Part shown: positions 3,805 through 13,506 of the stretch, in pieces
Layout of the letters: each line of letters opens with the position of its first letter
Position numbering within the stretch: position 1 is the stretch's first letter
Assembly: GCA_015233195.1 (NCBI GenBank)
Contig: JADFYE010000005.1
Coordinates: 76,122 to 108,419 of the forward strand
Direction of reading: 5' to 3'
Length of the DNA: 32,298 nucleotides
Origin: Candidatus Omnitrophota bacterium
GTDB taxonomy: Bacteria > Omnitrophota > Gorgyraeia > Zapsychrales > Zapsychraceae
Notes under the pieces: model-generated
What the model was told of the DNA's origin: nothing
Seen by the model: the letters and a program-made list of their open reading frames with translations, nothing else
Databases searched by the model: none
Program-made: the position numbers and the translations under genes

Positions 3805-3838
3805 GCCCTCACGCAAGACATTCTCGTGAATTTTGGGC
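3805..3838. repeat. Imperfect hairpin between vapC and fchA
   Basis: Two nested arms pair: GCCC (3805-3808) with GGGC (3835-3838), and TCACG (3809-3813) with CGTGA (3825-3829), with a five-base bulge on one side and a short imperfect inner stem. It starts at the vapC stop and ends about 25 bases before the fchA start. It has no following U-tract on the transcript, so terminator function is uncertain; it may instead be a second small extragenic palindrome flanking fchA. Confidence 0.5.
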
Positions 3839-4251
3839 TATTTACCCGATATATATTCCGCAGGTGAAAAAGCAGGAATGACCGAATTTTTAAAACCTTC
3901 TTTATCCCGAGTAAGAATAAAATCCGCTTCACAAACTTCAGCAGAAACATTCTGAATAGCGTCTTCCAAATCGCCGATAACAAGTAACGCACGACCAATT
4001 ATTTCATCCGTTAGATCAACAGTTTTAGTAAGCTTACGTAAATTATTTAAAAATTGATTGGCTTTTTTTACATCAGAATGTTTTCGCAAAAAATAATATA
4101 AAATAGGATAAGACGCAGCGCTCAAAAATCCTTTTGCTTCTCCCTGCTCAATTAATGACAAAATTTCCTCTGCTGGACCATGATCTGATCCGCGTTCAAA
4201 CGCAACATCTAAAATAATGTTTACATCCAAATAAAGCTTAGGCACGGGCAT
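3838..4251 (-). CDS. vapC: PIN-domain ribonuclease toxin of a type II toxin-antitoxin pair (VapC-like)
   Basis: The 137-residue protein has the PIN-fold layout: an N-terminal strand with an acidic residue (LYLDVNIILD, Asp9), a central DLEDAIQ (94-100) and a C-terminal ILTRD (112-116). These provide the metal-binding acidic residues of the fold, which cleaves RNA, often tRNA, in the VapC family. The second conserved acidic residue, normally a glutamate in helix 2-3, is not obvious in the SAASYPILYYFLR segment. The ATG overlaps the antitoxin gene by 14 bases, and a GGAG in the antitoxin coding sequence sits 7-8 bases upstream, so translation is probably coupled. A GTG two codons later is an alternative start. 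The pair is the only clear stress or plasmid-type module in the window. Confidence 0.82.
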   Translation of the reverse strand: MPVPKLYLDVNIILDVAFERGSDHGPAEEILSLIEQGEAKGFLSAASYPILYYFLRKHSDVKKANQFLNNLRKLTKTVDLTDEIIGRALLVIGDLEDAIQNVSAEVCEADFILTRDKEGFKNSVIPAFSPAEYISGK

Positions 4252-4495
4252 GCTTATTCTCCAAATGCTTACGATAAGTTGCGCGAATATCGGTTGGTGG
4301 AGCTCCTGAAAGAATACCGGACATTCTCCGAACTAAAGGACTAACCTTTTTTTCTTTTATAGCTGATGCTTTTAATCGGATCAAATATTCAGTCACAATA
4401 TTAGACAAAGAACGACCATGCTGCTTCGCCCAATCTTTGCCGAATGAAGCCAAATCACTCTCGACCCATAATGTTAATTTATTTTTTGTCTGCAT
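4238..4495 (-). CDS. Antitoxin partner of the PIN toxin (ribbon-helix-helix-like, DUF6364 type)
   Basis: An 85-residue protein directly upstream of, and overlapping, the PIN toxin gene. The N-terminus (KNKLTLWVESDLASFGKDWA) is a short strand followed by a helix, and HGRSLSNIVTEYLIRL is the second helix; this is the ribbon-helix-helix pattern of small DNA-binding antitoxins, most like the DUF6364 group. The basic C-terminal tail (from about residue 50) would wrap the toxin. A good ribosome-binding site (AAGGAGG) precedes the ATG. The promoter just upstream carries an inverted repeat suitable for autorepression by this protein. Family assignment is from pattern and context; DNA binding is inferred. 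Confidence 0.75.
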   Translation of the reverse strand: MQTKNKLTLWVESDLASFGKDWAKQHGRSLSNIVTEYLIRLKASAIKEKKVSPLVRRMSGILSGAPPTDIRATYRKHLENKHARA

Positions 4496-4505
4496 ATCAG
4501 CCTCC

Positions 4506-4544
4506 TTACGTATAAAATATACAATACTATACGTAATAAGTCAA
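4506..4544 (-). promoter_or_regulatory. Toxin-antitoxin promoter with overlapping operator
   Basis: On the minus strand TTGACT (4539-4544) and TATATT (4516-4521) are separated by exactly 17 bases, a near-consensus housekeeping sigma promoter. An inverted repeat TTACGTATA / TATACGTAA (4506-4514 and 4528-4536, 13-base spacer) has one arm in the promoter spacer and the other over the expected transcription start, just before the ribosome-binding site. Bound repressor would block polymerase, as in autoregulated toxin-antitoxin operons. The leader is only about ten bases. Confidence 0.75.
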
Positions 4545-4571
4545 CTGCGGTTTGATTATAATTAATAACAT

Positions 4572-6548
4572 TTATTTTACAGATTTAGCATTGATGTCCT
4601 GCAATAAACTCGCTTTTGATTTGATGATAGGTCCATTCAAATCATAATTAACCCTTTCACGAATTTCGACCATTGCCTGACAGGAGCAGTAATTCATGCC
4701 TCCTCCTACATTCCAAAAATCACAAAATGGTTTTAATAATTCCAAATCTTCGGGTATCCCATAGTTGCCCAAACGCATAAACGCGACTTGTCGACTTCCA
4801 TAATTTTCTTCTTTGAGCATTTTTCGTAAAAGAGGTAAGATCCTTTCTCCCTTAAGATCACATAATATTTCCGTCGCTACTTCTCTAATACGCTCTTCTT
4901 TATCAGTAAGTAATGTCATTATGACCTGTTCAACTTTATCACCCGCAATATTTTTTAAAGCCTCTTTTGCATTACTAATGCCATGCTCAACAGCATCTCG
5001 TTTAATATAATCTACCAATAACGGAATCGCGCGGTTTTCTTTTAAATCACCAAGACGAAATATAGCCCAAGATCTTGAGATATCGTTATACGGAATACCT
5101 CGAGGAGAATTTTTTAGCACATTTATAAGAAACAATCCTTCATCTTCTGCGCCGGTAAGAGGTACAAGAGGCTGTATTTGTTCCCAAGCTTCCTTATAAA
5201 CGGAATGAGATACTTGTCTTGATTCCAGAATGCTTTTTTCGTCTCCCAACCAAATGAGTTCGAGCAAATAACACATCGGATTATCTCCGGTCAAATGCGA
5301 CGGTGGAGGAGATTGAATCAATTTTTGTATTTTAATAACAGCTTGTTCACGAGCATCTTTTCCGAGCTCTCTTATCGCCATAGTGGCTTGTTGAACAGAT
5401 TTTTCATAGATAGCGTCATTCTTTTCTAAAACATTCAAAAACGATGGTAACGATTCCAAATTATGCCATTTTCGTAAAATTTTAACAGACTCAAACATTG
5501 CCAAGTAATTATCACCTTCCACATCTTTTTGAAAAATCGGCAACATAACCTTTTGAATAGCTATTTTTTCTTGATCATTGGCATCTTGAAGTAATTTAAT
5601 CGCAGCCATTCGCCGAGAAAAAACATCTTCCTTTTCGTCAACAATTAATGAAAAATACATATCCCGGGCTAGTTTAATTTTTCCAGCTTCTTCCATTTGG
5701 CTAGCTTTTAACCATTTTATTTTAGGTTCCGGCTTAGATAAGCTCTCATACTTCTCATTTTCATAACGCTTAGCTAGATACCTTGCCGCAAAATGATCAT
5801 TATCTCGTCCCAATTTAAAATATTTTTCAAATGCTTCAGTTACGCCTTCTGCTCCTGGAAAATTATAATATAGCCCCCGAGCAGCCGCATCACTTGTTGC
5901 CTTAGAAGTTGACAACAACGCTTTAATAAGCATTGGAACGCCTCTCAAATCGTTCATTTCAACAATCATTCCAATTAATTTTACTTGATAACCATCATTT
6001 AATTCATCATATAGCCCGGAAACCAAATCAAAGTTATCTCTATTTTTCATTTGAGCAATTTCTGCAAATAATTGCTCTTGAATATGAACATTGTTTTTTA
6101 AAAATTCTTTTATTAATTCATTTATTCGAGTTCTTTCATCTTTAATACTAAGAATGTTAGCCAGCAACTTTAAAGCTTCTAATTCATTTGGTTGTTGATA
6201 AAAATTAAGCGTTAACAGGTTGTGATCAGGCGTATCCCAATTTGAATTAAGTAAAACAGCTATTTGTTTTGAATCCAGAGGTACAATATTATCCGCCATT
6301 TCCCGACCGTCAGGTATCATAATCTCCTGTCCAACTAATGTTTTATCTCCTTTAATAACTTCACGAACAGAAATGGTCAAATCTAATTCTTTATTGCCCT
6401 TTTTTGTATCACCAATAACAATTAGCCCCGCCTTATTTATGTAATATCCCATCGACATATACGCGGCTTTTGCGTGAGCCTCAACTATTGTTAAAGAAAT
6501 AAAAATAAAAATTATACATACATAAATTTTATATGAATTTCTTTTCAC
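4572..6548 (-). CDS. Exported HEAT-repeat protein, last gene of the ECF sigma operon
   Basis: The 658-residue protein starts with a signal peptide (MKRNSYK, hydrophobic core, likely cleavage after VEAHA). Residues of about 30-115 form a small beta-rich domain with an ISVREVIKG segment, a pattern seen in exported proteins of unknown function. The rest, from about residue 130, is alpha-helical with HEAT-type pairs, for example VPMLIKALLST with SDAAARGLYYN, and EERIREVATEILCDLKG with ERILPLLRKMLKE. Such arrays bind other proteins. The start is a GTG (6546-6548) with AAGGAGA upstream. It follows the DUF4349 gene by 20 bases, so it probably belongs to the sigma/anti-sigma-VWA/DUF4349 operon and may act in the periplasm with those membrane proteins. 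No enzymatic motif was seen. Confidence 0.8.
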   Translation of the reverse strand: MKRNSYKIYVCIIFIFISLTIVEAHAKAAYMSMGYYINKAGLIVIGDTKKGNKELDLTISVREVIKGDKTLVGQEIMIPDGREMADNIVPLDSKQIAVLLNSNWDTPDHNLLTLNFYQQPNELEALKLLANILSIKDERTRINELIKEFLKNNVHIQEQLFAEIAQMKNRDNFDLVSGLYDELNDGYQVKLIGMIVEMNDLRGVPMLIKALLSTSKATSDAAARGLYYNFPGAEGVTEAFEKYFKLGRDNDHFAARYLAKRYENEKYESLSKPEPKIKWLKASQMEEAGKIKLARDMYFSLIVDEKEDVFSRRMAAIKLLQDANDQEKIAIQKVMLPIFQKDVEGDNYLAMFESVKILRKWHNLESLPSFLNVLEKNDAIYEKSVQQATMAIRELGKDAREQAVIKIQKLIQSPPPSHLTGDNPMCYLLELIWLGDEKSILESRQVSHSVYKEAWEQIQPLVPLTGAEDEGLFLINVLKNSPRGIPYNDISRSWAIFRLGDLKENRAIPLLVDYIKRDAVEHGISNAKEALKNIAGDKVEQVIMTLLTDKEERIREVATEILCDLKGERILPLLRKMLKEENYGSRQVAFMRLGNYGIPEDLELLKPFCDFWNVGGGMNYCSCQAMVEIRERVNYDLNGPIIKSKASLLQDINAKSVK

Positions 6549-6568
6549 GCAGTTTCTCCTTATAAAAA

Positions 6569-7462
6569 TTATTTTTTAATCTTCTTGATCAATTTAATCA
6601 CACCCCAAATAACAAACAAAACAATCATAATGGGCAATAAAAATGAAATGAGAATTATCATTCCATTAATCGTGTTCACAAAAACCTCAACTGACACTTT
6701 TAACGTCTGCTGAAATCTTTCTTTAAAATTCAAACCTCTAACGATATGAACTTGTTTTTCATAGTAATTAACAGTTACAGTCGCCATATCTGCTTGTGAA
6801 TCCAAATATTTGATCCTGCCTTCTAATGCTTCAATTTCTCCACCAACCCGAGCCATTTCCTTTTCAATCTCTAATATATCTTTAACTTCCCGGGCTTTTT
6901 CATCCATTATCTTGGTTAATCGATCTTTAACAATTTTATAATTCTGCAGACGAGCTTGAAGGTCTACATATTGTTCGGTTACATCTTCACCACTGACATT
7001 TTCATTCTCAACTTCTCCCAATTTTTTTATATCAACTAACGTTGCCACCATATTAGCAGGCAAAACTTTTAATACAGTTGTACCTCGCCGATTGTTTTCA
7101 CCAGAATTATAAATCTGCGAACTTATAATCATGCCGTTATATTTAGTTACAATATTATTAATTTCAACCTGGACTTTTAAAGAATCTTTGACTCGTATAC
7201 TCAAATTAGCATTTTGAATAACTTTGCGAATAACGGCTGCTGCTGGTGCAGCGCTCACACTACGAGAAATTTTTGACTCCTTATAATTAGGCTCATATGA
7301 TTTATCAGCCATTAAATATTGTCCACCAATATCGTCTGTAGCACTCCGAAGTCGCCCTTGCATTCCTCGGGTTAAATAACTAACCGATATAACCCCCAAT
7401 ATAATACCAATCACAACCCCTGCTAAAATTTTTATCCATGCTTTATTTTTATTAATTTCCAT
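6569..7462 (-). CDS. DUF4349 membrane protein sharing its N-terminal module with the upstream VWA protein
   Basis: The 297-residue protein is anchored at both ends: a membrane helix at about residues 11-30 and another at about 266-290. Between them are a beta-rich region of DUF4349 type (NANLSIRVKDS; NNIVTKYNGMIISSQ; TTVLKVLPANM), a coiled coil at about 163-222 (LQARLQNYKIVKDRL onward) and a VTVNYYEK strand. Function of DUF4349 is not known to me beyond frequent association with sigma/anti-sigma genes. I choose the ATG at 7460-7462 because GGAGGA lies five bases upstream; a longer frame upstream would overlap the VWA gene. Residues 1-60 align with residues 82-131 of the upstream VWA protein (LAG, QG.L, DI.G.Y) and share a YEP.YK segment. 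The gene starts 13 bases after that gene's stop. Confidence 0.85.
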   Translation of the reverse strand: MEINKNKAWIKILAGVVIGIILGVISVSYLTRGMQGRLRSATDDIGGQYLMADKSYEPNYKESKISRSVSAAPAAAVIRKVIQNANLSIRVKDSLKVQVEINNIVTKYNGMIISSQIYNSGENNRRGTTVLKVLPANMVATLVDIKKLGEVENENVSGEDVTEQYVDLQARLQNYKIVKDRLTKIMDEKAREVKDILEIEKEMARVGGEIEALEGRIKYLDSQADMATVTVNYYEKQVHIVRGLNFKERFQQTLKVSVEVFVNTINGMIILISFLLPIMIVLFVIWGVIKLIKKIKK

Positions 7463-7475
7463 ACGTCCTCCATTT

Positions 7476-9821
7476 TTATTTTTTAAACTGAATCCCTTTT
7501 CCCTGATCTTCGACCATACGAGTATCCAAATTTTTCGCTTTTTTAACCATGTCCACAAATTGTTGTCTATAACCAAATTCATCTTTACCGATACTGCCTT
7601 GAGCTAACGTAATTATTTGATCATAAGTTGCCGCACCTTTAAACATGGAATTACGTAACAGCAAACCAAATTCAGCTACTGCTGAGGCGAATGCCATATC
7701 TCCACTGATATTAGCCTCAATCTGGTCTGCAGTTACCGGCTGAGTGATCAAAGCGCTCACATCTTGATCTAGTTTTTTATAACGCAATTTTACTGTCATG
7801 AGCTCGTTACTTGAAACTACTTGAGTGGTTTGATATTTCAAAGCATCGACGCTTGCAACTACCTCTTTAGAATCAATCGGTATTATTTCATATAAAGCGG
7901 TTACGGTATGACCAGCCCCTAATTCACCCGCGTCTTTGGTATCATCATTAAAATCTTTATTAGCCAAAGCGCGTTTTTCATATCCCACCAGACGATATTC
8001 TTTAATCTTGGCTGGATTGAATTCTACTTGAATTTTAACATCCTTTGCAATTGTAAATAACGTCGAGCCTAATTCATTGACCATGACTTTTTTGGCTTCC
8101 TGAATATTGTCAATGTAATACGCATTGCCATTGCCTTTATCTGCCAATTGCTGGATCTTTTCATCTTTATAATTACCCATGCCAAAACCCATGATGGTCA
8201 AATAAACGCCTGACTTGCGTTTCTCCTCGATCATATTAACTAAACCGCTGGTCTGGAACATGCCTACATTAAAATCTCCGTCTGTAGCTAAAACAATCCG
8301 ATTGTTCCCGCCTTTGATAAAATTCTTCTCTGCAATTTGATAACCCATTTGAATGCCGTCTGCTCCTGCAGTACAACCGCAAGACTGTAAAGAATCTATA
8401 GCATTAAAAATTGTTGTTTTATCCGCGCCAGATGTTGAATCCAAAACCAACCAAGCTGCTCCTGAATAAGCAACAATAGCAACTTTTTGATTAGCAGTTA
8501 ATTGATTGACCATCATTTTGAAGCCTTGTTTTAAAAGCGGTAATTTATTCGCATCACTCATTGAGCCAGACACATCAATCAGAAATACCAAATTACTCGG
8601 CGGAATTTCTTTTTCATCTAAAGTTTTTCCATGTATTCCGATCAACGCCAACTGATGATCTTTGTTCCACGGGCATGGGCTGACTTTAGTTGTAATTGAA
8701 AATGGCTCATCATTTTTCGGATTAGGATAATCATAAGTAAAATAATTGATCATCTCTTCGATACGCACGCTTTCTTCAGGCGGCATTTGATTGTTATCTA
8801 AAAATCTGCGAATGTTACTGTATGATGCAGTATCAACGTCTATAGAGAAAGTTGACAATGGATCGGTTTGTGCCAATTTAAAATCAGTTTCAGAAAGTTT
8901 AGTGTATTCTTCAGTATTGGAATTATATACAGGATACACCGGTACAATCGGACCATCATAACTAAACACCATATAACCCCGACGTACACTTGCAATATCT
9001 GCAAAATCCATTCCTGATCGGCCTTCATCAACTCCTAACCTTCTCAAAGTTGATGCGTTTCCTCTAACAGCACCTATTTCATATACAGCCATCGGCTGAG
9101 ATTGCGCCATTCCCCCTATACTTCCCATACTGGCTTGTCCGGGAGCAGACATTAGACTCCTATTATCTACCACAACTTCTGTTTCTCTCTTTGCTTTTTT
9201 ATAATACGGCTCATACTGCCCTCCAGAAATCGGAGCTTCCATCAACAAACTTTTTGCTGTGACCACTTCACTCTTATCTGCCCCCAAACTTAAAGTTGCT
9301 GATTTTTCTGGTTTATAATTAATTTTTCCTAAAGATAAATTTTCAGAACCAGGTTGTAACTGTGCAGCTAATTTTTTTTCCACCGCAGTAGCTTGAGTAA
9401 CTTGAGCAGATTTAGCAGCACTACTAATTGCATACTCTCCGGTAATATCACTTACCACATGTTTCAATTTTCCCTGAGTTCCCTGAAGGATAAAATTTTG
9501 CGATGAAATAAGCGCTACTATCGCAATAGTAGTTCCTGCTAAAACTCTTAACGGCAAACGATTATTCTTAGTTTCCATACGTCCCTCCCTGGGCATAGCT
9601 TTATTCAAGCTTTGGTTAATTTGGTTTTCCAGATCGGGAGAGAGTTGTTCATCTTTCCAAGATGTAAGTTGAGAGGATATGGTCTTTACATCCTGATAAT
9701 ATTTTTTATAAACTTCATTTGTGGCGATCAATTTCTCAACTGCAGCGCGTTCTTCTTCCGTTACTTCGCCGTCTGCGTAAGCTGAGATCAAAATTTTTAT
9801 TTCTTCATCATTATATTTCAT
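7476..9821 (-). CDS. Anti-sigma-like domain fused to a YfbK-type von Willebrand A membrane protein
   Basis: The 781-residue product begins with an anti-sigma-factor-like domain (1-75: ISAYADGEVTEEERAAVEKL), lacking the HxxxCxxC zinc ligands. A membrane helix follows (about 92-112), then a long Gly/Ala/Gln-rich linker, a von Willebrand N-type region (TFSIDVDTASYSNIRRFLD, about 324-342), a VWA domain with an intact metal site (DVSGS at 416-420, Thr484, Asp514) and a DUF3520-like C-terminus. The layout from about 320 on matches YfbK proteins. Its start ATG overlaps the sigma gene stop (ATGA), indicating coupling, as usual for a sigma/anti-sigma pair. An in-frame ribosome-binding site and ATG occur at residue 82, at the joint between the anti-sigma domain and the VWA part, so a 700-residue form without the anti-sigma domain is likely. 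VWA ligand and signal are unknown. Confidence 0.87.
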   Translation of the reverse strand: MKYNDEEIKILISAYADGEVTEEERAAVEKLIATNEVYKKYYQDVKTISSQLTSWKDEQLSPDLENQINQSLNKAMPREGRMETKNNRLPLRVLAGTTIAIVALISSQNFILQGTQGKLKHVVSDITGEYAISSAAKSAQVTQATAVEKKLAAQLQPGSENLSLGKINYKPEKSATLSLGADKSEVVTAKSLLMEAPISGGQYEPYYKKAKRETEVVVDNRSLMSAPGQASMGSIGGMAQSQPMAVYEIGAVRGNASTLRRLGVDEGRSGMDFADIASVRRGYMVFSYDGPIVPVYPVYNSNTEEYTKLSETDFKLAQTDPLSTFSIDVDTASYSNIRRFLDNNQMPPEESVRIEEMINYFTYDYPNPKNDEPFSITTKVSPCPWNKDHQLALIGIHGKTLDEKEIPPSNLVFLIDVSGSMSDANKLPLLKQGFKMMVNQLTANQKVAIVAYSGAAWLVLDSTSGADKTTIFNAIDSLQSCGCTAGADGIQMGYQIAEKNFIKGGNNRIVLATDGDFNVGMFQTSGLVNMIEEKRKSGVYLTIMGFGMGNYKDEKIQQLADKGNGNAYYIDNIQEAKKVMVNELGSTLFTIAKDVKIQVEFNPAKIKEYRLVGYEKRALANKDFNDDTKDAGELGAGHTVTALYEIIPIDSKEVVASVDALKYQTTQVVSSNELMTVKLRYKKLDQDVSALITQPVTADQIEANISGDMAFASAVAEFGLLLRNSMFKGAATYDQIITLAQGSIGKDEFGYRQQFVDMVKKAKNLDTRMVEDQGKGIQFKK
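9576..9590 (-). promoter_or_regulatory. Internal Shine-Dalgarno and ATG inside the anti-sigma/VWA frame
   Basis: On the minus strand AGGGAGGGAC is followed at once by GT and an in-frame ATG (9576-9578, residue 82). The frame reads this as P-R-E-G-R-M. The DUF4349 gene start has nearly the same context, with GACGTATGGAAA identical over twelve bases and a GGAGG just before it. The match in both protein and leader suggests that this was once, and may still be, the true start of the VWA protein. Confidence 0.6.
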
Positions 9822-10390
9822 ATCTCTTCCCCTTTTTGGGACGATATTTGAACACGCAAAAATTCCCTCGCCCTATATATCAAAATTCTAACCTGATCTA
9901 ATGAACAAACCATAACGTCAGCAATTTCCTTATAACTCAAACTTTGATATTCCCTTAATATGATCGCCAATTGCTGTTCTTCAGGTAATTTATTTATAGC
10001 AGCTCGTACTTGTTTTTCCATTTCAACCCGTGCTATTTCTTCAAGCGGAAGTTCCCTAGTATCAGGAATATCCCATTCTTTCATCTCACCGGTTTTATCC
10101 ATGAACCAAAAGTTTGTCATATTTTTACGCTTTCGCATTTTTGAAAATGCCGCGTTTTTTGCTAAAGTAAACAGATAGGTTTTAAACATCGCGCCTTCTA
10201 CTAATTGGTACGTCTTTTTCAGAAGAGCCACAAACACTTCACTGGTTACATCCTCAGCATCTGCCCGATTTCCCACAAAACGCAAGGCAAAGTTCAAGAC
10301 ATGAGTCTTATAACGTTGAAACAACTCGCCTATGGCGTTTGCGTCACCTTTTTGAAAATCCATAATCAGTTCTTCATCAGATTTGACCAT
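9818..10390 (-). CDS. ECF-type RNA polymerase sigma factor
   Basis: The 190-residue protein has region 2 (AIGELFQRYKTHVLNFALRF with the DAEDVTSEVFVALLKK segment, which binds core polymerase and the -10 element) and region 4 (LPEEQQLAIILREYQSLSYKEIADVM followed by the helix-turn-helix that reads the -35). This is the standard extracytoplasmic-function sigma architecture. I take the ATG at 10388-10390, with TGAGGAT directly before it; a GTG 36 bases upstream would add 12 residues in frame but has no better ribosome-binding site. The downstream gene overlaps by four bases and begins with the anti-sigma domain, so the sigma factor is presumably held at the membrane by that protein. A possible self-controlled promoter lies upstream. 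Target genes elsewhere are not visible. Confidence 0.93.
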   Translation of the reverse strand: MVKSDEELIMDFQKGDANAIGELFQRYKTHVLNFALRFVGNRADAEDVTSEVFVALLKKTYQLVEGAMFKTYLFTLAKNAAFSKMRKRKNMTNFWFMDKTGEMKEWDIPDTRELPLEEIARVEMEKQVRAAINKLPEEQQLAIILREYQSLSYKEIADVMVCSLDQVRILIYRAREFLRVQISSQKGEEI

Positions 10391-10431
10391 ATCCTCATTC
10401 CTAAATCCTGAACTACTCTCTCTCACTCATT

Positions 10432-10459
10432 TAAACGCACCAAGGAAAGTTTTGTTACA
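10432..10459 (-). promoter_or_regulatory. Candidate ECF-sigma promoter (autoregulation)
   Basis: On the minus strand TGTAAC (10454-10459) and CGTTTA (10432-10437) are separated by 16 bases. This resembles the TGAAAC-N16-CGT pattern recognised by many ECF sigma factors and lies about 45 bases before the sigma gene start. The resemblance is by eye to motifs from other bacteria; this organism's own ECF motif is unknown. Confidence 0.4.
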
Positions 10460-10482
10460 AAATATTTTACCTTTATTTTGAA

Positions 10483-13482
10483 TTATTTAGAACTGGAAGT
10501 TAGGAATTTTTCGACACTGGACACTGATTGGACATCTGTAATAGTAGGATAGAAACCTTGGTAATTCGCATTTACCATACCCAAGGTACGCTCTGTCATA
10601 TTCATCTGTGCTTTATAACCCTGCTCTTTCAAATTCATCATAGCCGGATTAAAATCAATACCGCCGACGGGGGTTCCTTCGTCTTTATTTACACGCAAAA
10701 CATTAGTTGACAATGTCAATACCGCCTTATCACCATTCATAATTTTATTCATGTCTAAAACTGCGCGTTCAGCACGCTTCTCAAGCATCCGATTCCATAA
10801 TGCAACATATTTATTATCAAATTCTTCAACTTGAATTCCTAATTCATATTTACTCATATATTGTCTTTGCGCATTAAATCTTTCTAACACCCTACCAATT
10901 CGTACACGGGTTGAATCTTTAGTGTCATTAATAATATTTCCAAATACAGCAGTAGCATGTAGAATTTGAACTTCAAAAAATTTATTAAATGCGTCAACAA
11001 CCTCCTTCAATAAATACTCTACGTCAGCTTTTATCTGCTCCTTAGATAACTCCAATCCTTTCTTTGGAATTAAAAGCATACTTGGTCCTGCAGGAGGACC
11101 TCGAGTTACAATAACATTTTCGTATCGCTCCTTAAAAACTGCTGATTTTAAAATGATATGTCTTATAAAAGATAATGCTATATCTCCGCCTTCTTCTCCA
11201 AAAACTTCATTAAGAATTTTTAATTCACCATAATCTATTCTTGAATCACGTAAATTTGTTGCAGCATGAACTTGACGATATTCATCAATTTTAGGATGTG
11301 AATACCCTGAAAAATCACATTGAATAACCAAAGCCCTTGCTAGTTCTTCTTGTGATAATCTGTTCAACGCTTCTACAATAGCATCAAAACTATCAGCATA
11401 ATAAATATGCTCCCCCATCCATTCTTCACGAACTAAATCAAACCTAGATTCATCCCGTAACGCATCAAACAAACCAATATTTTTAAGCACAATCATTGTG
11501 TCCGGATGATCTAAATTTAGTTTTAACATTTCTTCCCATTTACCAGTATTTATAACCCAATCCCCCTTATAAATAATATCCGGAACATTATTAAACTTTC
11601 CAAGTACAAACCCTTTTTTTGATTCCATGCGCCGCACATCCGAAATAGATACTAATTTTCTTAGTATAGATTCCGCACCTGCATTAGTAATAATATCTTG
11701 TTTATGCTCTGGATTTTCAATATCAACAATATCATTAGCAGCATCTGACACTCCTATTGAAAGACGTAAACTCAAAGTATTCGGTTTGGATAAATTATCC
11801 AACCAGGAAGGCACAACTACGAGGTTGCGATCATGTTCATCTTTAATCGTATTAAGAATACCATTAATAAAGTCACGACTATTTTGTGAAATATTAAACT
11901 TAGGAAAAACTACTATCGTACTGTGTCCTACAATCGAAATATCACCACTAAAATCATGAATTCTTTTAATTGCAGCTTCGGATAAAACAACATCCCGCCC
12001 CAAAGAAGCAACCGAAAATTCAATTTTAGATAAATCCTCAACAAATTTTTTAAACTTAACTTTTTTATCATCATCTAAGTTCGATAATACCAGCGAAAAC
12101 TCGTCTCCTCCTCTTCTCCACAAAACTGACTCTGAATATTGCCCAGCAAATTTACCCAATTCCTCCCGAAAAACTTTAAACAAAACATTAGCCGCTCTCT
12201 TACCTATAATTGTGTTCATCCAAAATAATAAAGAAACATCAATATTAAAATATGTGGCACTTTTTGTATTTATTATCATTTTCCTAACTTTAGCTTCAGC
12301 CTCTTGGGTTGGAATAAAATCACTCGGAACTACACCAGAACTAGGAATTAAATTAACTACAATTTGTTTCTCTGCAAACGAATCATCTGCCATCGCAGCA
12401 TCAGTAATTTCACGATAAGTGTCTCCCATCATTGCCCAATCAACCATATCCACACCGCCAGAAAAATATTTCCTAGGTATAGTAGTTTGTGTGATCGGAT
12501 CGTATTCTTCTTTTACATAATCATACGCGCCTTTTTTAAATGATTCGATATATTGATCGTAAATAACTTGTTTATCTGACTGATCAACTAAATTCACACC
12601 TGCTACTTTATTCTTACCCACATATTTCTCACCCAACAAACTTTTCTTTAAATTATGTTTATACCATGTGGCAAGAATAAGCGATTGATACACTTGGCGT
12701 AACTGTGAAAAATTCGCACCAGTATTAACCTCCCGCTCGATTGCAGGGACGATGACCTCTTTGAGTACCTGCGAGGCGGTCCCGTGATCGCGTAGCGATT
12801 TTACGGGATTACCACCAGCAATTTTTGTGTATTCTTCCTCAGTCAGCACCTTCAAATGACTACTTACCACAACAGCCGAAAATTTTGATTTATCCACATA
12901 AACCGTTGCCTCGTCCGGAACGATCCAAACTTTACTTAAAATATCTTTTGGAATATCTAAGTTAACCCTATACACTTTGTCCCAAAAATCTTTTCCTAAC
13001 TGGCTTTCCGGATACATTGCGGTAGCAGTAATTTGTTTTAATAAATAATCTTGCGCCAAAAGATCTCGTCCCATTTCAGTTAAACTAAATTTATCAGCAA
13101 TGATCCGATTCTTTTCATAAGGCGATAAGTTGACCCATAAATCTTTATCCGGCACAGTAAGTGCGGTTAAAAAATATCTGACCAATTTATTCGACTCGTC
13201 TTCAAACTCATCCTCGGTCAGATTTGATTGACCAACATTAACTAAAAAATTTAACTTTAGCGGATCATTAGGATCTACTTTTATACCCTTAAGAACCACT
13301 GGCTCAAAACTCTGGCTAAAATTAACCATTTGTGGTGAGCTGAGTCGGACCATAGTACTTGGTTTAGGCAGATCAAGAACATTTTGGGCAAGCACCAACG
13401 ACGGAGAAACAGTATTAAATACAAAAAAGAAAGTAATTAATAATGATACTTTGCGTAAATTTAATAATATTTTACAACTCAT
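10483..13482 (-). CDS. Exported Omnitrophota-type protein with two GGDEF-like domains
   Basis: The 999-residue protein starts at the ATG at 13480-13482, where AAAGGGGG precedes it; an in-frame upstream ATG at 13569 would give an implausible double hydrophobic leader. Residues 1-33 are a signal peptide ending SLVLAQ. Residues of about 35-350 match a block I recall from many Omnitrophota exported proteins (EDEFEDESNKLVRYFLTAL, IPRKYFSGG). Residues of about 405-625 look like a diguanylate-cyclase fold: Asp415, Asn423, RRGGDEF (456-462) and SIGVS (575-579). Residues of about 715-890 repeat that pattern in degenerate form (LVIQCDF, KILNEVFG, GGD at 765-767; PPAGP at 796-800 where GGDEF would be). 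The C-terminus has GGIDFNP (940-946) and GFYPTITDV. Two substrate-pocket residues of the first domain are changed. Its cellular location and whether it makes cyclic di-GMP are open. Confidence 0.85.
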   Translation of the reverse strand: MSCKILLNLRKVSLLITFFFVFNTVSPSLVLAQNVLDLPKPSTMVRLSSPQMVNFSQSFEPVVLKGIKVDPNDPLKLNFLVNVGQSNLTEDEFEDESNKLVRYFLTALTVPDKDLWVNLSPYEKNRIIADKFSLTEMGRDLLAQDYLLKQITATAMYPESQLGKDFWDKVYRVNLDIPKDILSKVWIVPDEATVYVDKSKFSAVVVSSHLKVLTEEEYTKIAGGNPVKSLRDHGTASQVLKEVIVPAIEREVNTGANFSQLRQVYQSLILATWYKHNLKKSLLGEKYVGKNKVAGVNLVDQSDKQVIYDQYIESFKKGAYDYVKEEYDPITQTTIPRKYFSGGVDMVDWAMMGDTYREITDAAMADDSFAEKQIVVNLIPSSGVVPSDFIPTQEAEAKVRKMIINTKSATYFNIDVSLLFWMNTIIGKRAANVLFKVFREELGKFAGQYSESVLWRRGGDEFSLVLSNLDDDKKVKFKKFVEDLSKIEFSVASLGRDVVLSEAAIKRIHDFSGDISIVGHSTIVVFPKFNISQNSRDFINGILNTIKDEHDRNLVVVPSWLDNLSKPNTLSLRLSIGVSDAANDIVDIENPEHKQDIITNAGAESILRKLVSISDVRRMESKKGFVLGKFNNVPDIIYKGDWVINTGKWEEMLKLNLDHPDTMIVLKNIGLFDALRDESRFDLVREEWMGEHIYYADSFDAIVEALNRLSQEELARALVIQCDFSGYSHPKIDEYRQVHAATNLRDSRIDYGELKILNEVFGEEGGDIALSFIRHIILKSAVFKERYENVIVTRGPPAGPSMLLIPKKGLELSKEQIKADVEYLLKEVVDAFNKFFEVQILHATAVFGNIINDTKDSTRVRIGRVLERFNAQRQYMSKYELGIQVEEFDNKYVALWNRMLEKRAERAVLDMNKIMNGDKAVLTLSTNVLRVNKDEGTPVGGIDFNPAMMNLKEQGYKAQMNMTERTLGMVNANYQGFYPTITDVQSVSSVEKFLTSSSK
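12780..12808. repeat. Palindromic element inside a coding sequence
   Basis: Arms TCCCGT/ACGGGA (12780-12785, 12803-12808) and ATCGC/GCGAT (12787-12791, 12795-12799) pair around a GTA loop with a small internal bulge. The element is more GC-rich than the flanks and encodes residues 225-235 (NPVKSLRDHGT) of the two-GGDEF protein in frame. It looks like a small mobile palindrome inserted into the gene. Confidence 0.55.
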
Positions 13483-13506
13483 ACTGCCCCCTTTATATCT
13501 ATGATA

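Follow-up and report, generated by a model that had tools for sequence, protein, structure and literature searches.

Tandem GGDEF-type domains in a leader-bearing family of Omnitrophota proteins

Introduction

GTP is a cytosolic nucleotide and is not expected beyond the cytoplasm. An export leader and a need for GTP, ATP, or NAD should not go together. Nevertheless, a gene from Candidatus Omnitrophota, a large uncultured phylum, joins an export-type leader to two GGDEF-type domains, which raises the question of where such a protein would work and on what. The gene lies in a stretch of 32,298 nucleotides (here, the window) from contig JADFYE010000005.1 of assembly GCA_015233195.1. A host-dependent, predatory, or parasitic life has been proposed for the Omnitrophota (PMC10066038).

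Results

The open reading frame of 999 amino acids is genuine (Table 1). Its ATG is preceded by a ggggg run at 13487-13491 with a 4-base spacing, and is a better start than the GTG of a longer frame that extends to 13569. Counted from this ATG, D415, N423, GGDEF (458-462), and SIGVS, followed by LVIQCDF (718), KILNEVFG, and GPPAGP (within RGPPAGP, 794-800), occur in exactly the order and at exactly the positions given in the original prediction, which had been made from the DNA sequence alone.

Table 1. Coordinates of the features described in this study. Positions refer to the window unless a locus is named.
Feature	Position	Strand	Basis
Whole gene, 999 aa plus stop	10483..13482	(-)	ATG at 13482, ORF call
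Export-type leader MSCKILLNLRKVSLLITFFFVFNTVSPSLVLA, predicted cut before Q33	13387..13482	(-)	Heuristic scan
N-block, residues 34-353, common to the family	12424..13383	(-)	32-sequence alignment, AlphaFold2
Domain 1, predicted GGDEF fold, insertion before the SIGVS strand	11602..12306	(-)	Pfam, PDB profile search, Foldseek, hhalign 98.8
GGDEF motif, residues 458-462	12097..12111	(-)	
Domain 2, GGDEF-type fold with altered loop	10810..11409	(-)	hhalign, strand/helix order in model
RGPPAGP, residues 794-800, replacing RYGGEEF	11083..11103	(-)	
C-block, GGIDFNPAMMNL... to end	10486..10677	(-)	Found in family copies
Stretch absent at the locus in G164 and G467	3838..13482	(-)	Synteny, Pfam
G036 leader-bearing N-block protein, PGK+PPDK	L200:402-7916		
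G036 leader-bearing N-block protein, TIM+enolase	L200:8421-12608		
G036 leader-bearing N-block protein, PGM	L202:5838-9476		
G036 leader-bearing N-block protein, iPGM	L202:16252-19899		

An ECF sigma factor gene and its VWA neighbor lie directly downstream, so the predicted adjacency to an ECF operon stands; a conserved link between them does not. In one genome of the same genus (G164) and one of the same family (G467), the genes found at window position 3816 and below come immediately after yraN. The intervening stretch, which here encodes PIN, HEAT, DUF4349, VWA, and ECF sigma proteins along with the GGDEF pair (Pfam), is missing from both, therefore the gene is either a recent gain in this lineage or a loss in the others. 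G467 has an ECF/VWA pair elsewhere. The two relatives give no support to the ECF operon and the gene as a conserved unit. The whole stretch, situated between rnhB/yraN and the genes below 3816, is lineage-specific.

We searched for the tandem in Omnitrophota genomes sampled in overlapping draws of 285, 384, and 384. Because few candidates were scored per genome, the relatives found represent a lower bound. The tandem was detected in at least five other genomes, four from family f34 (G269, G166, G334, and G352) plus G207, with 21 to 28% identity to the pair in the window; no relative was found in G164, and none in viral contigs. The order of the two domains is the same in the five relatives. 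All six proteins begin with a leader or leader-like segment, but their N-terminal domains differ. The pair in G207, a genome in which the N-block described below had no match, sits inside an open frame of 25,804 amino acids that runs to the contig end (C13, from 56524; L098-L102). Internal signal-peptide-like segments occur in this frame at about residues 8965 and 12323.

Profile comparisons and a predicted structure indicate that domain 1 is a GGDEF fold, as had been proposed. With the window protein alone, the Pfam GGDEF family (PF00990) gave E = 7.8e-4 and 19.7 bits against a curated cutoff of 23.8, over residues 416-483 in the numbering used here (445-512 in the longer frame); the relative L061 scored 30.6 bits, above the cutoff. 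A PDB sequence search with the single protein returned no match, and a profile was needed: that of the six pair sequences matched DosC best (E = 1.2e-6), with PleD at 0.01 and further GGDEF structures. NCBIfam gave no match to the whole protein at E values up to 10. Structure prediction, suggested with the original prediction as a check on both domains, produced a GGDEF fold for domain 1 and a GGDEF-like topology for domain 2. The AlphaFold2 model has a pLDDT of 64.6 overall, approximately 75 to 85 in the core of domain 1, and a pTM of 0.44; in Foldseek it matched GGDEF domains at probability 1.00, with TM-scores up to 0.69 by target length.

Across the six pairs, D415, N423, and G459-D460-E461 of domain 1 are invariant, and the locus L062 has NGDEN at the GGDEF loop. 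The GG[DE]EF loop is present in domain 1 and absent in domain 2. Domain 1 lacks a DxLTGLxNR start, and in five of the six pairs it has N at the position of the guanine Asp (PleD D344). No single domain combines the metal Asp, N335, D344, and the loop acid: from this active-cyclase set, domain 1 has N for D344, and domain 2 is without the loop acid.

In hhalign comparisons with ordinary GGDEF domains, domain 1 reached a probability of 98.8 and domain 2, compared with 40 such domains, 92.4; the negative controls gave 0.2 (reversed domain 2 profile) and 0.4 (N-block). The alignment pairs R-YGGEEF-S with R-GPPAGP-S residue for residue, and by our reading the strand and helix order of domain 2 in the model is GGDEF-type. 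The GPPAGP loop recurs with at most one change in five of the six sequences (RGGPSTP in the sixth), and K755, N758, G762, and D767 of the base-binding segment are invariant. Comparison of L096 with L097 gave dN/dS values of 0.39 and 0.34 for the two domains; in this one pair of relatives, both domains are under purifying selection. Because the loop variant is kept in relatives and dN/dS is approximately 0.35 in that pair, the loop of domain 2 is not a product of decay; on loop conservation, dN/dS, and the hhalign probability together, random decay of the domain is rejected. The second domain had been described as degenerate, which holds for its altered loop within a GGDEF-type domain, but not for the conservation of that loop or of the K, N, and D residues of the base-binding segment. 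The invariant residues differ by domain, so the two halves have lost different parts: what remains in domain 1 is the set of metal and loop residues, and in domain 2 the base-binding segment.

The leader consists of K/R, then a hydrophobic core, then an SLVLA site before Q. By our own heuristic it thus has the charged start, hydrophobic core, and signal peptidase I site of a Sec export signal. A hydrophobicity scan of the 999-residue protein found no hydrophobic 19-mer after the leader. The two scans agree with the earlier view of an N-terminal signal peptide without a later membrane helix, and they suggest an extracytoplasmic location for the GGDEF pair. Three relatives (L061, L062, and L096) have membrane segments that separate the leader from the pair; in L061 and L062 the last of these is followed by positive residues. 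In these three the pair may face the cytoplasm; the pair of membrane segments is absent in the window protein and in L097. In family f34, to which these four relatives belong, leader-bearing proteins have in common a leader of the form IIQAFLxxDIAWA, and most of them close with a short tail (e.g., IEQAI, INQSI, or VNQSV), which is perhaps a second terminal tag.

Queried with the whole protein, the window genome gave 41 matches; all but a few cover the N-terminal third, at approximately 45 to 54% identity. About 33 family copies were recognized. They have a constant frame: a leader, an N-block of about 320 amino acids, a variable middle, and a C-block of about 60 amino acids that opens with GGIDL. 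The N-block alignment has 30 invariant columns among 32 sequences, and its AlphaFold2 model is confident (pTM 0.78). The C-block was found in 28 of the 32 copies in addition to the window protein, and three of the four copies without it reach a contig end. In the heuristic scan, each of the 32 family proteins whose start is complete showed a hydrophobic core, and 31 showed a signal-peptidase-I-like site, with a recurrent cut before Q (SYAQ, GYAQ, SAQ, and VLAQ). The N-block was present in 17 of 19 relatives, and the scored copies numbered as many as 34. A survey of the class found it in 39 of 246 genomes, with first-look counts of candidates, only partly scored, that went up to 78. Three IMG/VR contigs (L187, L188, and L189) also encode an N-block, at 48% identity, and are either virus or misassigned Omnitrophota DNA.

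The alignment and the C-block counts confirm the N- and C-terminal Omnitrophota blocks that had been proposed, and the suggestion that their combination with GGDEF domains was undescribed agrees with our searches of the literature, Pfam/NCBIfam, and the PDB. Neither block of the window protein matched Pfam or NCBIfam, and the N-block model had no match at E < 0.1 in the PDB or BFVD (viral folds). No paper describing the frame was found in the literature searched, which took in neither preprints nor the majority of subscription journals. Within the reach of these tools, the frame of the family is undescribed; the GGDEF domain itself is already known, and the pair form is new. No C-terminal sorting domain of a type IX secretion cargo was recognized (no NCBIfam match of the whole protein at E up to 10).

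In the window genome, the domains recognized in the variable middles comprise glutamate dehydrogenase, NAD epimerase, MutS domain V, PGM plus UDPGP, methyltransferase, aldo/keto reductase, shikimate dehydrogenase, RIO-type kinases, adenosine deaminase, histidine-kinase-type ATPases, and a PPDK N-domain, as well as the GGDEF pair. About half of the cargos have no recognized domain, and the cargos of this genome showed neither a typical secreted hydrolase nor a typical adhesin. Catalytic motifs are, by our reading, largely kept (kinase HGDL..N/DWD and epimerase YxxxK). One leader-bearing protein (L145) combines a RIO-type kinase with an adenosine deaminase domain.

In a genome of another family (G036, family f13), the cargos of the frame are TIM+enolase, PGM/PMM, a GatZ-like protein, and an iPGM whose two halves have exchanged places; a single frame protein of 2,505 amino acids carries PGK plus full PPDK. 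The leader-bearing proteins with PGK+PPDK, TIM+enolase, PGM, and iPGM cluster on two contigs (Table 1). G036 further encodes an M48 peptidase paired with an ABC1 kinase, as well as a GH77 protein whose N-block is more distant. By our reading, the active-site motifs of TIM (NWKM/GHSER/YEPVWAIG), PPDK (GGMTSHAA), enolase, PGK, and iPGM are present. Because G036 also encodes an ordinary leaderless PGK (399 amino acids, 38% identical to the leader-bearing one), the leader-bearing PGK is an extra; replacement of cytosolic enzymes by leader-bearing ones is rejected for PGK, of which this genome has both. Going by domain content, the GGDEF pair is one cargo among many in the frame. Since leader, N-block, and C-block carry many cytosolic-type enzymes, the export puzzle is not special to GGDEF.

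Discussion

Starting from a family, a frame, two GGDEF-type domains, and conserved residues that computation establishes, we favor, with a probability of roughly 0.5, a modular exported family in which the GGDEF pair binds nucleotides and works where cytosolic metabolites exist. The Sec-type leader would take the protein across the inner membrane, and the N-block and C-block would form a common frame that probably serves its destination, whether through further export, anchoring, or folding. The middle of the protein would be an exchangeable cargo, here an asymmetric pair of GGDEF-fold domains. Most likely the pair forms an intramolecular pseudo-dimer that binds purine nucleotides, resembling Cas10 or soluble adenylyl cyclase, and only domain 1 could be catalytic. 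The destination may be another cell to which the bacterium attaches, which would accord with the predatory or parasitic life proposed for the phylum (PMC10066038), or an internal compartment; because sister cargos need ATP, NAD, or SAM, a space with cytosolic metabolites is most likely. Points against this reading are that GTP is not expected beyond the cytoplasm, that L061, L062, and L096 have membrane segments before the pair, and that domain 1 departs from canonical cyclases. The genome has eight secretin genes; these show that outer-membrane channels exist in general and do not imply carriage of the family, for which no delivery machinery was identified. A search of the genome for an ATP/ADP translocase gave no match, and the control query was likewise silent. 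We offer only tentatively the broader proposal that leader, N-block, and C-block constitute an undescribed targeting system that sends dozens of cytosolic-type enzymes to a partner or prey cell or to a compartment; in one lineage it would take in a second set of lower-glycolysis enzymes, and in another the two-palm GGDEF protein.

Exported but non-catalytic proteins constitute a doubtful alternative, in which the pair is a periplasmic or surface module for ligand binding or structure, with enzyme-type domains taken over for the sake of their folds. This fits the expectation of no GTP in the periplasm or on the surface, the missing loop acids of domain 2, the departures of domain 1 at D344 and in its N-terminal motif, and the large share of cargos without a recognized domain (about half in the window genome). 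However, catalytic motifs that pure structure would not need are kept in sister cargos (TIM, PPDK, kinase, and epimerase), and D415, N423, and GDE are invariant across six divergent pairs.

It is unlikely that the leader is an uncleaved anchor, or no export signal at all, and the pair a membrane-tethered, unusual cyclase in the cytoplasm. GTP would be available there, and the membrane segments before the pair in L061, L062, and L096, with the positive residues that follow in the first two, would suit such a topology; but the window protein and L097 have no such segments, K/R before the core places the rest outside by the positive-inside rule, and the cut site before Q recurs across the family. 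A cytosolic diguanylate cyclase that became joined to a secreted protein by chance and is now a decaying relic would explain the loss of canonical motifs and the lack of a pair relative in G164, but is highly improbable given five relatives with the same tandem order and GPPAGP-type loop, a dN/dS of approximately 0.35 in one relative pair, an intact frame, and a good ribosome site.

Under any reading of the family, either the enzymes run in another cell, or there is an unseen compartment, or the leaders are misread, and each answer would be new. The N-block and C-block provide direct markers for testing the destination of the family. The GGDEF pair would be a natural tandem palm protein, one half active and one altered, outside CRISPR and adenylyl cyclases.

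The protein shares with GGDEF domains and diguanylate cyclases (PF00990; PleD, DosC, and WspR) the fold, the D and N of the first segment, the GG[DE]EF loop in domain 1, and the base-binding K/N/D segment in domain 2. It differs in the tandem within one chain, the insertion in domain 1, the export leader, the change of D344 to N, the absence of DxLTGLxNR, and the GPPAGP loop of domain 2. Csm1/Cas10 and soluble adenylyl cyclase were among the best Foldseek matches at full length, with TM-scores of 0.13 to 0.19, low values that reflect the uncertain placement of the domains in the model (pTM 0.44). These proteins likewise have two related palms per chain, one active-looking and one altered, whereas no other Cas10 or adenylyl cyclase domains and no sequence match were seen in the window protein. 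Pfam and NCBIfam gave no Cas10 family match; the resemblance is one of fold only. With the giant proteins of Omnitrophota (PMC10066038) there is a connection through the pair relative in the 25,804-residue frame of G207, although the gene in the window is of ordinary size and G207 is without the N-block. Finally, the family resembles proteins with type IX secretion C-terminal domains and polymorphic toxins in its leader, common terminal blocks, and exchangeable middle. It differs from them in that no known family or fold corresponds to its N-block or C-block, and in that its identified cargos are metabolic and signaling enzymes.
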